A stretch of 18,970 nucleotides of DNA from Blautia sp. GTDB lineage: Bacteria; Bacillota; Clostridia; Lachnospirales; Lachnospiraceae. Both the position numbers and the translations under genes were made by a program. Location: assembly GCA_017420455.1 (NCBI GenBank), contig JAFOJB010000464.1, positions 1 through 18,970 of the forward strand, in the 5' to 3' direction. The notes under the pieces were generated by a model. It ran no database searches and was not told where the DNA came from. It saw nothing but the letters and a program-made list of their open reading frames with translations. Each line of letters opens with the position of its first letter. Position 1 is the stretch's first letter. Below are positions 3,849 through 18,970 of the stretch, piece after piece.

Positions 3849-4075
3849 GGGTTCCTCCTTCAGGGCATAAAGGGATGTCCAGTTCATTCATATCTTCTTT
3901 ATCATATCATATCCGGCGGGGAAAACACAGGACTTTTATGCTTTAGTGGATTATTGCTTCAAATTCCGTCAGGAGAAGACAGGGGGACGGCAACCCTCTG
4001 GCAGCGAGTGAATCCCGGGAACGGACATGATAATGCGGACGGGAGAGGAGACGACCGCCTCCTCTCCCTGTGTTC

Positions 4076-4145
4076 CTGCAGTCAGGAAGGCCGACAGACA
4101 ACGAAAACACATCAGTCCACAACCGGTGAGGCCGTGAACTGTAGC
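4076..4145 (+). repeat. Fragment of the GTTAC-type dispersed repeat
   Basis: Aligned by eye without gaps to the reverse complement of 18735-18804, 60 of 70 positions match. It ends in GTGAACTGTAGC, a variant of the GTGAACTGYAAC terminus of the complete element near the right edge of the window. No matching left terminus is visible upstream, so this looks like a half element. Confidence 0.75.
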
Positions 4146-5026: not shown

Positions 5027-5036
5027 GCATATCAGA

Positions 5037-5220
5037 GTTACTATTCACTGCTCTCCACAACATTCGGAATTCCCGCCCTGCGGGCTCTCCTGGCGCTTCG
5101 CGCCTGAATTCCTCATCTTGTGGAGTAACAGCTTTCGCAGTCCTGCCCGGATATGAGACCGGATTTTCCGTGCAGGCACAAAAATCCGGTCTCATATCCG
5201 GGCAGGCTGTGAATAGTAAC
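5037..5220. mobile_element. 184-bp miniature inverted-repeat element with 8-bp target duplication
   Basis: The ends are exact inverted repeats: GTTACTATTCAC (5037-5048) and GTGAATAGTAAC (5209-5220). They are flanked directly by ATATCAGA at 5029-5036 and again at 5221-5228, a perfect 8-bp target duplication. Inside are a hairpin with a perfect 26-bp stem (5142-5167 with 5181-5206) and a branched stem opening with CTCCACAA/TTGTGGAG. There is no room for a transposase, so it must have been moved in trans. It sits between the HAD gene and phosphoglucomutase, with its right duplication about 24 bases before the latter's ribosome site. Confidence 0.85.
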
Positions 5221-5268
5221 ATATCAGAATATTTCTGTGAAGAATAGGAAAAAAGGAGGGTTTGAAAA

Positions 5269-6960
5269 ATGAATGCAATGGAAAGGTACGAATGCTGGCT
5301 GAAAAGCCTCTCCGTGGACGATCCGCTTCGAAAGGAGCTGGAGAGCATCGCGGGAGACGAGAAGGAGATCAACGAGCGCTTTTATCAGGAAATCGTGTTT
5401 GGAACCGCCGGCCTCCGGGGCATCTGCGGCGCGGGGACAAACAGGATGAATGTTCTTACCGTGGGAAGAGCCACCCAGGGAATCGCGAACTACATCCTGA
5501 AATCCGGCGCTGACCCGGAAAAAGGACTTGCGGTTGCCTATGACTGCAGATATCATTCCCAGGAGTTTTCGGAGCTGGTGGCGGAGATCATGGCCGGAAA
5601 CGGGATTAAAACCTATCTGTTCCCGGATATGCGGCCTACCCCCGAGCTCTCCTTTGCCATCAGAAAACTGGGCTGCATTTCGGGTGTGAACATGACGGCA
5701 AGTCATAATCCGAAGGAATACAACGGCTACAAGGTATACTGGTCCGATGGCGCGCAGATTTCCGGTGAGGTTTCCGACGGGATGCTTTCCGAGATCCAGA
5801 AGCTGGATTTCTTTGATGACTTTAAGAGGCTGCCCCTTGCCGAAGCGAAGGAGAAAGGCCTGGTGGTGATGCTGGGCGAAGAAATGGACAGAGAATATCT
5901 GGACTATGTTAAGGGGATGAGCCAGCATGGGGACGAAGAGCTGGATAAATCGGTCAGCATCGTCTATACCCCGCTGAACGGAGCCGGCTCCATCCCGGTC
6001 CGGACGGTCCTCACAGAAATGGGCTTTACGAATTTCCATATCGTTCCGGAGCAGGAAATGCCGGATCCGGAGTTCACCACGGTCGGGTATCCGAACCCGG
6101 AGGACCCGAAGGGCTTCGAACTGGCGGAAAAGCTGGGAAAGGAAGTCAAAGCAGACGTACTGATCGCTACGGATCCGGACAGCGATCGTATGGCCATCGA
6201 GGTACCCGGAGAGGACGGGGAATATCATTTCCTGAACGGCAATCAGACAGGCGCCATGCTGATCGCCTATATGGCTGAAGGGATGAAGGAGAATGGAAAG
6301 CTTCCCGAGAAGGCTGCCCTGATCAAATCCATCGTCACCGGTGATATGGGCGCTGCCATCGCGAAGAGCTATGGGATCGAGGTCTTCCAGACCCTGACCG
6401 GTTTTAAGAACATCTGCGGGAAGATCCATGATGTGAATGAAAAGGGGTACAGCTACTTCTTCGGATATGAGGAGAGTATCGGCTGTGCTCCGGGAGAGGC
6501 TGTCCGGGATAAGGACGGCGTATGCTGCGCCATGCTCATCGCGGAGATGGCAGCGTACTATAAAAAGAAAGGAATGAGCCTGCCGCAGGCGCTGGAGGAG
6601 CTTTACAAAAAGTATGGATATTTCAGTGAGGAGCAGGTCTCTCTGGTACGCAAAGGCGTGGAAGGCGCTGCCCTGATCGGCCGGATCATGGACGCTTTCC
6701 GGGACGGGAAGCCGCAGGCCTTCGGTGACTTCAAGGTACAGAAGACCACGGATTATCTTCACGGTTATGAGGATATCCCGGCCTCGAATGTTCTGAAGTT
6801 TGACCTGGCACCCGGAGTCTGGTTCGCCATGAGGCCTTCCGGTACAGAGCCGAAGATCAAGTTCTACTATTATGCAGTGGCAGATGACAAGGAACGCTCC
6901 GCCGGTCAGGTAAAGCAGATGCGCGAAGCCGTAGATGCGATGATCGCGGATATCAAATAA
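5269..6960 (+). CDS. pgcA: Alpha-phosphoglucomutase / phosphomannomutase family enzyme
   Basis: This 563-residue cytoplasmic enzyme belongs to the alpha-D-phosphohexomutase family. It interconverts glucose-1-phosphate and glucose-6-phosphate, linking glycolysis to glycogen and envelope sugar synthesis. The phosphoserine loop is TASHNPKEYNG with active Ser145. The metal loop is DPDSDR (302-307), the sugar-specificity loop GYEES (399-403), and the phosphate-binding loop RPSGTEPK (522-529). The order and length fit the long Firmicutes PgcA type; mannose-6-phosphate activity is also possible. AAAGGAGGG precedes the ATG by about eight bases. A second ATG three codons later is less well placed. The last codons form the first unit of a 34-bp tandem repeat. 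The product symbol is by family; substrate preference is inferred. Confidence 0.93.
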   Translation: MNAMERYECWLKSLSVDDPLRKELESIAGDEKEINERFYQEIVFGTAGLRGICGAGTNRMNVLTVGRATQGIANYILKSGADPEKGLAVAYDCRYHSQEFSELVAEIMAGNGIKTYLFPDMRPTPELSFAIRKLGCISGVNMTASHNPKEYNGYKVYWSDGAQISGEVSDGMLSEIQKLDFFDDFKRLPLAEAKEKGLVVMLGEEMDREYLDYVKGMSQHGDEELDKSVSIVYTPLNGAGSIPVRTVLTEMGFTNFHIVPEQEMPDPEFTTVGYPNPEDPKGFELAEKLGKEVKADVLIATDPDSDRMAIEVPGEDGEYHFLNGNQTGAMLIAYMAEGMKENGKLPEKAALIKSIVTGDMGAAIAKSYGIEVFQTLTGFKNICGKIHDVNEKGYSYFFGYEESIGCAPGEAVRDKDGVCCAMLIAEMAAYYKKKGMSLPQALEELYKKYGYFSEEQVSLVRKGVEGAALIGRIMDAFRDGKPQAFGDFKVQKTTDYLHGYEDIPASNVLKFDLAPGVWFAMRPSGTEPKIKFYYYAVADDKERSAGQVKQMREAVDAMIADIK

Positions 6961-17216: not shown

Positions 17217-18623
17217 TCAGGAAAACCCTTTGTGTATGGAGTCGACGCCATAGGAGCGGCGGATCTTTTCCACCATTTCATTGAGGCGTTTTTCTGTCTC
17301 TGTTTTTTCACGGGAGTGCTTTATATTTTCTGCCTTTCCGGAACGGGTCCGGGGAGGTTTTTTCTTTATCTTCGTATTTGTATCCGCAGACAGTGTATCC
17401 TGCGGACGGGGACGGCTGCCCACAGGGCTGCTGTCAGCTGCGGGACCTGGAACGTCCGGCGGGGAAGGGGCGGCGGACAGATAGTCAAAGAGGTCCATCT
17501 GGCGGAATTCTCCCTTATCCAGGCTGCTGGCGGAGACGCCTATGAGGCGCAGAGCGTATCCCCGGTCGAAGAGCCCGTCTTTTTCTCTGGTCAGACCGGA
17601 GAGCAGCTCTTTGGAATGCCGGTACAGGGATTCGAAATCATTCACCGAGCGTTCCAGCGTCTTTTGTCTGGAATGGCGCTGAAACTGGTCCGTCTTTACC
17701 ATGACGCCTATGGTAGAGGCAAAGACGCCGTCCTTTAGAAGCCGTTCGGAAACCTTGCGGCACAGATGGGAAAGGATTTCCGGAACAGCCTTGTCGTAAT
17801 TGTTACGGTCGATATCGAAGGCGGTGGTGGTTTCGTTGGAATAGCTTTTGGCTTCTTCTGCTTCGGTCTGCAGGACATCGCTGCCGATGCCGTTGCACCG
17901 GAGAAAGATGTATTCGCCGGCTTTCTCTCCCAGATAACTTTGCAGCAGTGAGAGGGGCGTTCCCGCTGCCTCTCCGATGGTGCGGATACCCAGGCGGGAA
18001 AGCTTTGCGGCTGTCTGCCTGCCGCAGCCATGAAGCTCTCCGATGGGCAGAGGCCACATTTTGGAAGGAACCTCCTCAGGCAGCAGTGTGTGGACTTTAT
18101 CCGGCTTCTCGAAATCACTGGCCATTTTTGCCAGGATCCGGTTGACAGATACACCTACATTCACTGTGAATCCCAGACGCTCCCGGATGGCGTCTTTCAG
18201 CCTTCCGGCGATGTTCAGGATGGAAGAAATGTTTTCATGGTCAAAAGAAACCAGCGTTTTTCCTTCTGACATATCCATGTAAGCCTCGTCGATGGAAACC
18301 TGTTCCACCACGGAGCTGTATTCCCGCAGTATTCTGATAAAAGCGCGGGAATACTCCCGATATGTCGTAAAGTCCGATTTCACCAGGACCAGGGAGGGAC
18401 ATTTCTGCAGAGCCTTTACCACTGGTTCCCCCGTCTTTATTCCGAATTTCTTTGCAGGGATGGATTTTGCCGTGATGATTCCATGCCGCGTCTCTACGTC
18501 TCCACCCACGGCTGAGGGAATGGTCCGAAGGTCCACCGCTTCCGAATCTTCTTTGAGACGTTTTACCGCTGACCAGGAGAGAAAAGCAGAATTCACATCC
18601 ACATGAAAAATAATCGTCTCCAT
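17217..18623 (-). CDS. dinB: Y-family DNA polymerase (DinB/Pol IV type)
   Basis: This 468-residue protein is a translesion polymerase that copies past damaged bases. The palm motifs are HVDVNSAF with Asp9, and SIDEAYMD with Asp112 and Glu113, the catalytic metal ligands. A thumb helix-hairpin-helix (LHGCGRQTAAKLSRLGI, about 197-213) and a little-finger domain (about 255-368) follow. QMDLF (375-379) is a sliding-clamp binding motif. After it comes an unusual Pro/Ser/Lys-rich linker of about 60 residues and a terminal helix ending RRSYGVDSIHKGFS, seen in related Firmicutes polymerases. The first motif is the variant common in Clostridia rather than the Enterobacteria form. No strong ribosome site precedes the ATG. 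A TATAAT lies close upstream; I see no clear LexA site. Confidence 0.92.
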   Translation of the reverse strand: METIIFHVDVNSAFLSWSAVKRLKEDSEAVDLRTIPSAVGGDVETRHGIITAKSIPAKKFGIKTGEPVVKALQKCPSLVLVKSDFTTYREYSRAFIRILREYSSVVEQVSIDEAYMDMSEGKTLVSFDHENISSILNIAGRLKDAIRERLGFTVNVGVSVNRILAKMASDFEKPDKVHTLLPEEVPSKMWPLPIGELHGCGRQTAAKLSRLGIRTIGEAAGTPLSLLQSYLGEKAGEYIFLRCNGIGSDVLQTEAEEAKSYSNETTTAFDIDRNNYDKAVPEILSHLCRKVSERLLKDGVFASTIGVMVKTDQFQRHSRQKTLERSVNDFESLYRHSKELLSGLTREKDGLFDRGYALRLIGVSASSLDKGEFRQMDLFDYLSAAPSPPDVPGPAADSSPVGSRPRPQDTLSADTNTKIKKKPPRTRSGKAENIKHSREKTETEKRLNEMVEKIRRSYGVDSIHKGFS

Positions 18624-18657: not shown

Positions 18658-18734
18658 CACTGTGGCTCCGTAACTCTCCTTTATCCTAACAGAAAAGCGG
18701 TTTCTTGTCGAGAACCATGGCCGCTGTTTCCATT

Positions 18735-18936
18735 GTTACAGTTCATGGTCTCACCGGCCGGGGACAGATGTGTTTTCGGCGTCTGTCGGCCCTCCTGACT
18801 GCAGAAGAATCTTTGTCTGCGTCTGCAGGACGTAAAGACCTTTGACTGCGGACAAAGATTCTTCTGCAGTCCGTCAGGACGCCAGACACTCTGAAAACAC
18901 ATGCAGTCCCCGGCCGGTGAGACCGTGAACTGCAAC
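18735..18936. mobile_element. 202-bp palindromic miniature element with 8-bp target duplication
   Basis: The left end GTTACAGTTCATGGTCTC and the reverse complement of the right end, GTTGCAGTTCACGGTCTC, begin terminal inverted repeats of about 32 bp with three differences. TTTCCATT lies directly outside both ends (18727-18734 and 18937-18944), a perfect 8-bp target duplication. The palindrome continues inward; the central arms (18799-18817 and 18851-18869) pair exactly over 19 bp starting CTGCAGAAG. No transposase is present. Half of it recurs at 4076-4145. Nothing else is seen in the last 300 bases. Confidence 0.88.
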
Positions 18937-18970
18937 TTTCCATTTGTGCTTGAAAAAGGCAGGGGAATCA

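Follow-up and report, generated by a model that had tools for sequence, protein, structure and literature searches.

The small dispersed repeats of cyanobacteria are very short mobile repeats, and the ends of the IS66 family are generally known to begin with GTAA. The IS66 elements ISPpa5a and ISPpa7 are reported with 8-bp repeats (PMC3281130). MITEPsy1 of Pseudomonas syringae is described as a 100-bp element with no gene, with terminal inverted repeats and a target duplication, and is thought to be moved in trans; the duplication is given as 4 nt and the element is ascribed to ISPsy2, which the table of that report enters as IS5? (PMC3189936). REP and REPIN sequences with RAYT transposases are described as high-copy short palindromes located mostly between genes (PMC3116915). 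When the open-licence literature was searched by title or abstract start, no paper describing the ends reported here or an IS66 MITE in Clostridia was found, and six 12-base end sequences matched only five papers, unrelated by title.

The locus examined here is a 202-bp near-complete palindrome flanked by perfect copies of TTTCCATT, and it lies in the window, by which we mean the whole 18,970-nucleotide stretch of DNA that was analysed. Its features are as follows.

18727..18734, no strand: left copy of the 8-bp target duplication, TTTCCATT (sequence read and flank comparison)
18735..18936, plus strand: probable palindromic, non-autonomous MITE of 202 bp (inverted repeats, fold, relatives in the genome)
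18735..18765, plus strand: left end arm of 31 nt, the first 24 bp of which are the shared end motif GTTACAGTTCAYGGNCTCMCCGGC (arm pairing, motif search)
18797..18817, plus strand: left arm of the inner stem, exact over 21 bp (read by eye; within computed arm I1)
18851..18871, minus strand: right arm of the inner stem, exact over 21 bp (read by eye; within computed arm I1)
18906..18936, minus strand: right end, the inverted left end, 94% complementary (arm pairing, motif search)
18937..18944, no strand: right copy of the 8-bp target duplication, TTTCCATT (sequence read and flank comparison)

The initial annotation had placed a near-full palindrome with a perfect 8-bp duplication at 18727..18944, and these coordinates were exact; the further exact inner stem that it described is present, but at 21 base pairs rather than 19. 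As RNA, the 202-bp element folds at -140 kcal/mol on the plus strand (z -15.5) and at -144.1 kcal/mol on the minus strand (z -18.1), and on either strand none of 200 dinucleotide shuffles folded as well. No transposase gene is carried by the element; the only listed ORFs of at least 80 aa across it are minus-strand frames of 84 and 95 aa. It starts 111 bp beyond the start codon of its left neighbour (17217-18623, minus strand), which, judged by eye, looks like a gene for a DinB-type DNA polymerase. The contig stops 26 bp past the right 8-bp repeat, as expected where a repeat breaks short-read assembly. As in MITEs, terminal inverted repeats and many dispersed copies were both found, and the earlier reading as a non-autonomous miniature transposon was borne out by high-copy ends, the lack of a gene, the 8-bp flanks and evidence of insertion in relatives.

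Two further elements were located in the window.

4122..4145, minus strand: third end motif, with 2 mismatches, closing on the right a decayed element that may begin at about 3985 (motif search)
5029..5036, no strand: left 8-bp duplication of the second element, ATATCAGA (end-pair scan)
5037..5220, plus strand: second element, 184 bp, with ends GTTACTATTCACTGCT and GTTACTATTCACAGCC and hairpins at -102.9 kcal/mol (end-pair scan, fold)
5221..5228, no strand: right 8-bp duplication of the second element, ATATCAGA (end-pair scan)

The second element (5037-5220) has GTTACTATTCAC ends and lies 48 bp ahead of an ORF at 5269. The decayed relative (about 3985-4145) sits between two divergent ORFs; a GGGGACGGTTCTTTTGTC stretch adjoins its end motif and is also seen beside some other family copies.

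The window's own genome (G000; assembly 77.9% complete) was searched with the ends of the element, as had been suggested earlier. The 24-bp end motif was found at 140 places with up to 3 mismatches, and the reversed pattern, used as a control, at none. A 218-bp query returned 74 matches in this genome, which is not a copy number because a palindrome can match both strands and only 40 of 182 candidates were scored. Among 61 genomes searched with the long query (its own and 60 others; 36 of the same genus) only the own genome matched, and among 64 genomes of the genus the end pattern matched only the own genome and G079, the latter at two places with 3 mismatches. Since the other searched genomes had no long-query match and nearly none had the end pattern, the species of the window seems to have had a private burst of this hairpin family. 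The end matches in G079, a sister species, are weak (L124, L125); one is by eye a 37-bp unit with no 8-bp repeat.

Copy sizes were surveyed in the stretches around 100 listed end matches of the 140. A unit of 30 to 45 bp was closed by 28 of 110 unique ends (right end with at most 1 mismatch), and all 28 units measured exactly 37 bp, with the form GTTACAGTTC-N17-GGACTGTAAC. Longer copies of 46, 77, 102, 122, 133, 148, 164, 202 and 514 bp were also present; complete copies span about 37 to 514 bp, with common ends and a varying interior, and the 514-bp copy folds at -336 kcal/mol. Inverted end pairs in S. arabinosiphila also measured 33 and 34 bp, so the length of 37 bp is not absolute. Only 7 of 48 complete copies in the window's genome lay inside ORFs of at least 150 aa, compared with 7428 of 9600 random points. 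A further long palindromic subfamily, with family ends and a different interior, was cut by contig ends (L077:1-164, L067:12613-12919). Four other loci (L016, L017, L018 and L029) had inner modules as in the family with different outer ends (TTACAGCGGACGG...), and at 4 to 9 of 24 sites both of their inner arms were altered alike.

Complete copies were chosen for a flank comparison blind to their flanks, with flanks swapped between copies as the control. Exact 8-bp flanking repeats were present in 10 of 48 complete copies and a 7/8 match in another 4, compared with 0 of 1,392 swapped pairs at 7/8 or better. The 36 copies of 37 bp matched at 8/8 in 6 cases, 7/8 in 3 and 6/8 in 5 (swapped: 0 of 1260 at 7/8 or better), and the 12 longer copies at 8/8 in 4, 7/8 in 1 and 6/8 in 2 (swapped: 0 of 132). 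Exact repeats of 9 to 11 bp were found in none of the 48. The idea that the copies would be flanked by 8-bp duplications was thus correct for 14 of 48 copies, at a level never seen in swapped flanks, but not for the 34 that matched at 6/8 or less (7 of these at 6/8), so in most copies the repeat has decayed, has recombined or was never present.

Insertion was visible directly in several relatives. A 148-bp copy is nested in another family member in locus L065, at the target CATCAGTC; with at most 2 substitutions allowed, the uninterrupted form of this site was found at 29 places across the fetched loci, part of which overlap one another. In locus L084 a 37-mer is nested in another 37-mer (the outer unit was counted by eye), and the inner one has its own 8-bp repeat. 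In S. arabinosiphila (L158) one region is present three times: two paralogues hold a 148-bp element between copies of GCCAGTAA, and the third is an empty site without the element and with a single GCCAGTCA. The single 8-mer anticipated at an empty site was therefore found for a related element, in addition to the two nested insertions. Together, the nested copies and the empty paralogous site show real insertion for relatives of the window copy.

Relatives were also sought in other genomes. The 37-bp pattern GTTACAGTTCN17GRACTGTAAC matched 61 stretches in the genome_contigs set, from 16 assemblies by accession prefix, mostly titled Lachnospiraceae or its genera and one Oscillospiraceae; a few single matches may be chance, as equal base frequencies predict about one. 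Among 66 listed 37-mers, three had their own 8/8 repeats (L145, L174, L193) and one a 7/8 repeat (L173). Another feature is that 48 run on into a GCATCCAGCCC hairpin; these form the final 37 bp of longer elements, for the most part 145-148 bp in length. Inverted GTTACNNTTCA ends formed 198 pairs in loci L140-L203, of which 38 unique ones matched at 7/8 or better; 31 had full 8/8 matches, among them one artefact of a tandem duplication. Two pairs were discarded, one of 2900 bp in L158 as a tandem duplication and one at 4780254-4783028 as chance. Fifteen of the 31 elements with 8/8 repeats measured 145-147 bp and paired a GTTACAGTTCAC end with a GTTACTATTCAC end, which indicates that the GTTACAG and GTTACTA end types work together. 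A single 31-bp palindrome on a viral contig (L201:991-1021), shorter than 37 bp, has GTTACAGTTC ends and perfect 8-bp repeats, TGACACTT. Neither the element nor the 37-mer matched Rfam, phage or plasmid records, and a 22-base end pattern gave 0 matches in genome_contigs and viral_contigs, sets that may exclude the own genome.

When 1.6 Mb of the 6.35 Mb of S. arabinosiphila were scanned for ends separated by at most 100 kb, 1705 pairs were obtained, 15 of which matched at 7/8 or better, all at 8/8; swapped flanks from 51 near pairs matched at this level in 10 of 2550 cases. These 15 comprised 13 pairs of 98-195 bp, a 1992-bp composite and a 2458-bp element. The last of these, and a second element from a viral-contig search for relatives with a ten-sequence alignment, are autonomous.

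G088:C1:917384-919841 (S. arabinosiphila): autonomous element, 2458 bp, with a perfect 16/16 terminal repeat, GTTACTATTCACAGTC, and a flanking 8-bp repeat, ATTGCAAC
L359:3373-5812 (viral contig): second autonomous element, 2440 bp, with ends GTTACTATTCACA, repeats TTTTGCGC and a transposase 47% identical to that of the first

Both have the sister end GTTACTATTCAC, 8-bp repeats and IS66-like transposases. Two reading frames lie in the 2458-bp element, one for a 587-aa protein and one of 121 aa, the latter with no profile match. The 587-aa protein has the IS66 transposase domain (PF03050, DDE_Tnp_IS66; 41.6 bits, cut-off 23.1) and scored 150.8 bits against the NCBIfam IS66 equivalog, under its cut-off of 180. 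In a search with this protein that scored 7995 candidates, 503 relatives reached E <= 0.001. Eight IS66 elements on plasmids were then picked from 30 listed relatives. In six, terminal repeats that start with GTAA at one or both ends are accompanied by a perfectly matching 8-bp repeat, as in ISGka4 (GTAACTATTCAG) and Chlorohelix (GTAACAGTTCAG), and in two a terminal repeat with an 8-bp repeat was not seen. Each of the six is weak singly, given terminal-repeat scores of 14, 14, 14, 13, 12 and 12 of 16, two cases from one Planococcus strain, and 2 of 35 random windows in which a de novo search found a terminal repeat of at least 14/16 with an 8-bp repeat. The window family shares the 8-bp direct repeats of IS66, and its ends have T as the third base where these plasmid elements have A; as they start with GTTA and not GTAA, with similar letters after that, we call the family IS66-like and do not file it as IS66.

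Other searches for a partner gave none: ORFs inward of the ends in the window's genome (listed by length only), unpaired S. arabinosiphila ends judged by eye, insertion sequence ends in viral contigs with the end patterns, loci with PF01609, and viral contigs searched with a single protein. The 1992-bp composite (L224; G088:C1:287369-289360) consists of two same-orientation copies around an Rpn gene (PF12784), with outer repeats GTGTAATT. The Rpn/PDDEXK_2 nuclease was rejected as a partner, since only 1 of 18 PF12784 loci in S. arabinosiphila was framed by ends in this way and the window's genome has none, and we judge the gene to be cargo between the two copies. A 1907-bp insertion sequence of S. 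arabinosiphila (L307-L314; 461-aa DDE_Tnp_1 protein, ends CAATGTCATTTAGTTAA) lay by eye within GTTAC element ends in 6 of 8 copies, one of them visible on one side only; the end invaded in the L313 copy resembles that of the IS66-like element, and exact 10-bp repeats were present in 5 of 7 copies with both ends visible.

The best explanation, with a probability of about 0.86, is that the window feature is a gene-less 202-bp MITE whose ends (GTTACAGTTCAYGG...) would serve as recognition sites for an IS66-like DDE transposase supplied in trans. As its end sequences are like those of IS66-type transposons, the hairpin family likely borrows an enzyme of that type. The transposase would recognise both GTTACAGTTCAYGG ends and join the element to a target staggered by 8 bp; the host's repair would then convert this stagger into the 8-bp direct repeat. 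An element with exactly GTTACAGTTCAC ends and its own transposase was not found in these searches; the match is to the sister class GTTACTATTCAC, and mixed-end elements join the two, from which we infer that an IS66-like enzyme moves the end class of the window in trans. The PF03050 transposase had 0 matches in the window's genome; the incompleteness of the assembly (78% complete) may account for this, or the enzyme may have been lost after the burst. The initial annotation had held that the GTTAC terminus names no source; the source can be narrowed to IS66-like by way of the elements with GTTACTATTCAC ends and the plasmid IS66 elements with GTAAC ends. We further infer that the interiors of the palindromes became larger through inverted duplication and correction between arms, and not for a cellular function. 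The inner arms of 17 copies had the same change at 29 sites (2000 shuffles: mean 7.1, maximum 22), a count that overstates events because related copies inherit common changes, and such joint changes fit either correction between palindrome arms or selection for the hairpin.

The very stable folds and the excess of joint arm changes would also suit palindromes retained because they function in the cell, as structured RNAs or as transcription terminators, and a role of the near-complete fold as RNA had been raised at the outset. That option found no support in Rfam: the window and six loci with relatives had no match at gathering score. Among 28 intergenic copies with both neighbours, only 3 lie between convergent genes (9 divergent, 16 co-directional), the ends are kept while size and interior vary, and the joint arm changes also fit copy correction, so we regard such a function as very improbable. 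Mobility through a DDE family other than the IS66-like one, again with a stagger of 8 bp (IS256, ISL3, IS1595, IS6 or an undescribed family), with the IS66-like ends arising by convergence on a short motif, is easier to entertain and still decidedly unlikely. It would account for the window end class GTTACAGTTCA having no autonomous partner among those found, only the sister class GTTACTATTCA having one. Yet the 15 elements with 8/8 repeats join GTTACAG and GTTACTA ends, an S. arabinosiphila insertion sequence whose 538-aa frame matches PF00872 weakly has different ends, GGTAGTGTCAAG, and so does the 461-aa DDE_Tnp_1 element. The window's genome had 0 matches to PF00872, PF01610, PF12762 and PF01609 (IS256, ISL3, IS1595 and DDE_Tnp_1). 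Of the families first named as sources of 8-bp duplications (IS256, IS66, ISL3 and IS6), IS66 was matched in ends and repeats, and transposases of IS256 and ISL3 were not found in this genome.

The origin of the 37-bp copies may be considered apart from the enzyme. They could be remnants of larger elements that collapsed in place, through recombination of an outer end with a same-orientation inner end, and that kept the old 8-bp repeat; we hold this to be possible at a little under even odds. The 145-148-bp elements consist of about 110 bp and a terminal 37-bp palindrome, have outer and inner ends in direct repeat and would leave 37 bp upon deletion, and one 148-bp element in the window's genome (L071) has a complete 37-mer as its left part. 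On the other hand, 36 copies of 37 bp were found against 12 longer complete copies in the fetched loci of that genome, where contig ends cut longer copies more often, and the inner 37-mer of L084 has its own 8-bp repeat; both the excess and the nesting are also compatible with collapse, and neither excludes it. Alternatively, the 37-bp stem-loop would be a complete, independent DDE transposon and long hairpins (202 bp, 514 bp) would move folded, one stem base offering both ends. Movement as a cruciform or single-strand hairpin would then explain why many family members are palindromic, and the stem-loop would be among the smallest DDE transposons with an exact target duplication; we consider this combination unlikely.

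These comparisons point to IS66-like elements as the likely source of hairpins that abound between the genes of a single Clostridia-like genome and that are met again in gut Lachnospiraceae. Its commonest short form, 37 bp, is unusually small for a mobile element. If this unit moves alone, it would push at the minimum size for DDE transposons with two ends, and it offers a clean substrate for the question of how two ends so close together pair.

Among known systems, the cyanobacterial small dispersed repeats resemble this family as very short mobile repeats, and REP and REPIN sequences resemble it as high-copy, intergenic short palindromes. To our knowledge, REPs make no target duplication; what sets the family described here apart from REP and REPIN is an exact target duplication of 8 bp together with an IS66-like partner. 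MITEPsy1 has a 4-nt duplication where this family has 8 bp, and the family adds near-complete palindromes and units down to 37 bp. IS66 elements with one large transposase gene (ISGka4, ISMno2 and those of the Planococcus, Anoxybacillus and Chlorohelix plasmids) share the 8-bp direct repeats, and their ends GTAACTATTCAG and GTAACAGTTCAG resemble the GTTACTATTCAC and GTTACAGTTCAC ends of the family; they encode a transposase whereas the window copy encodes none, and the third base of their ends is A where here it is T.
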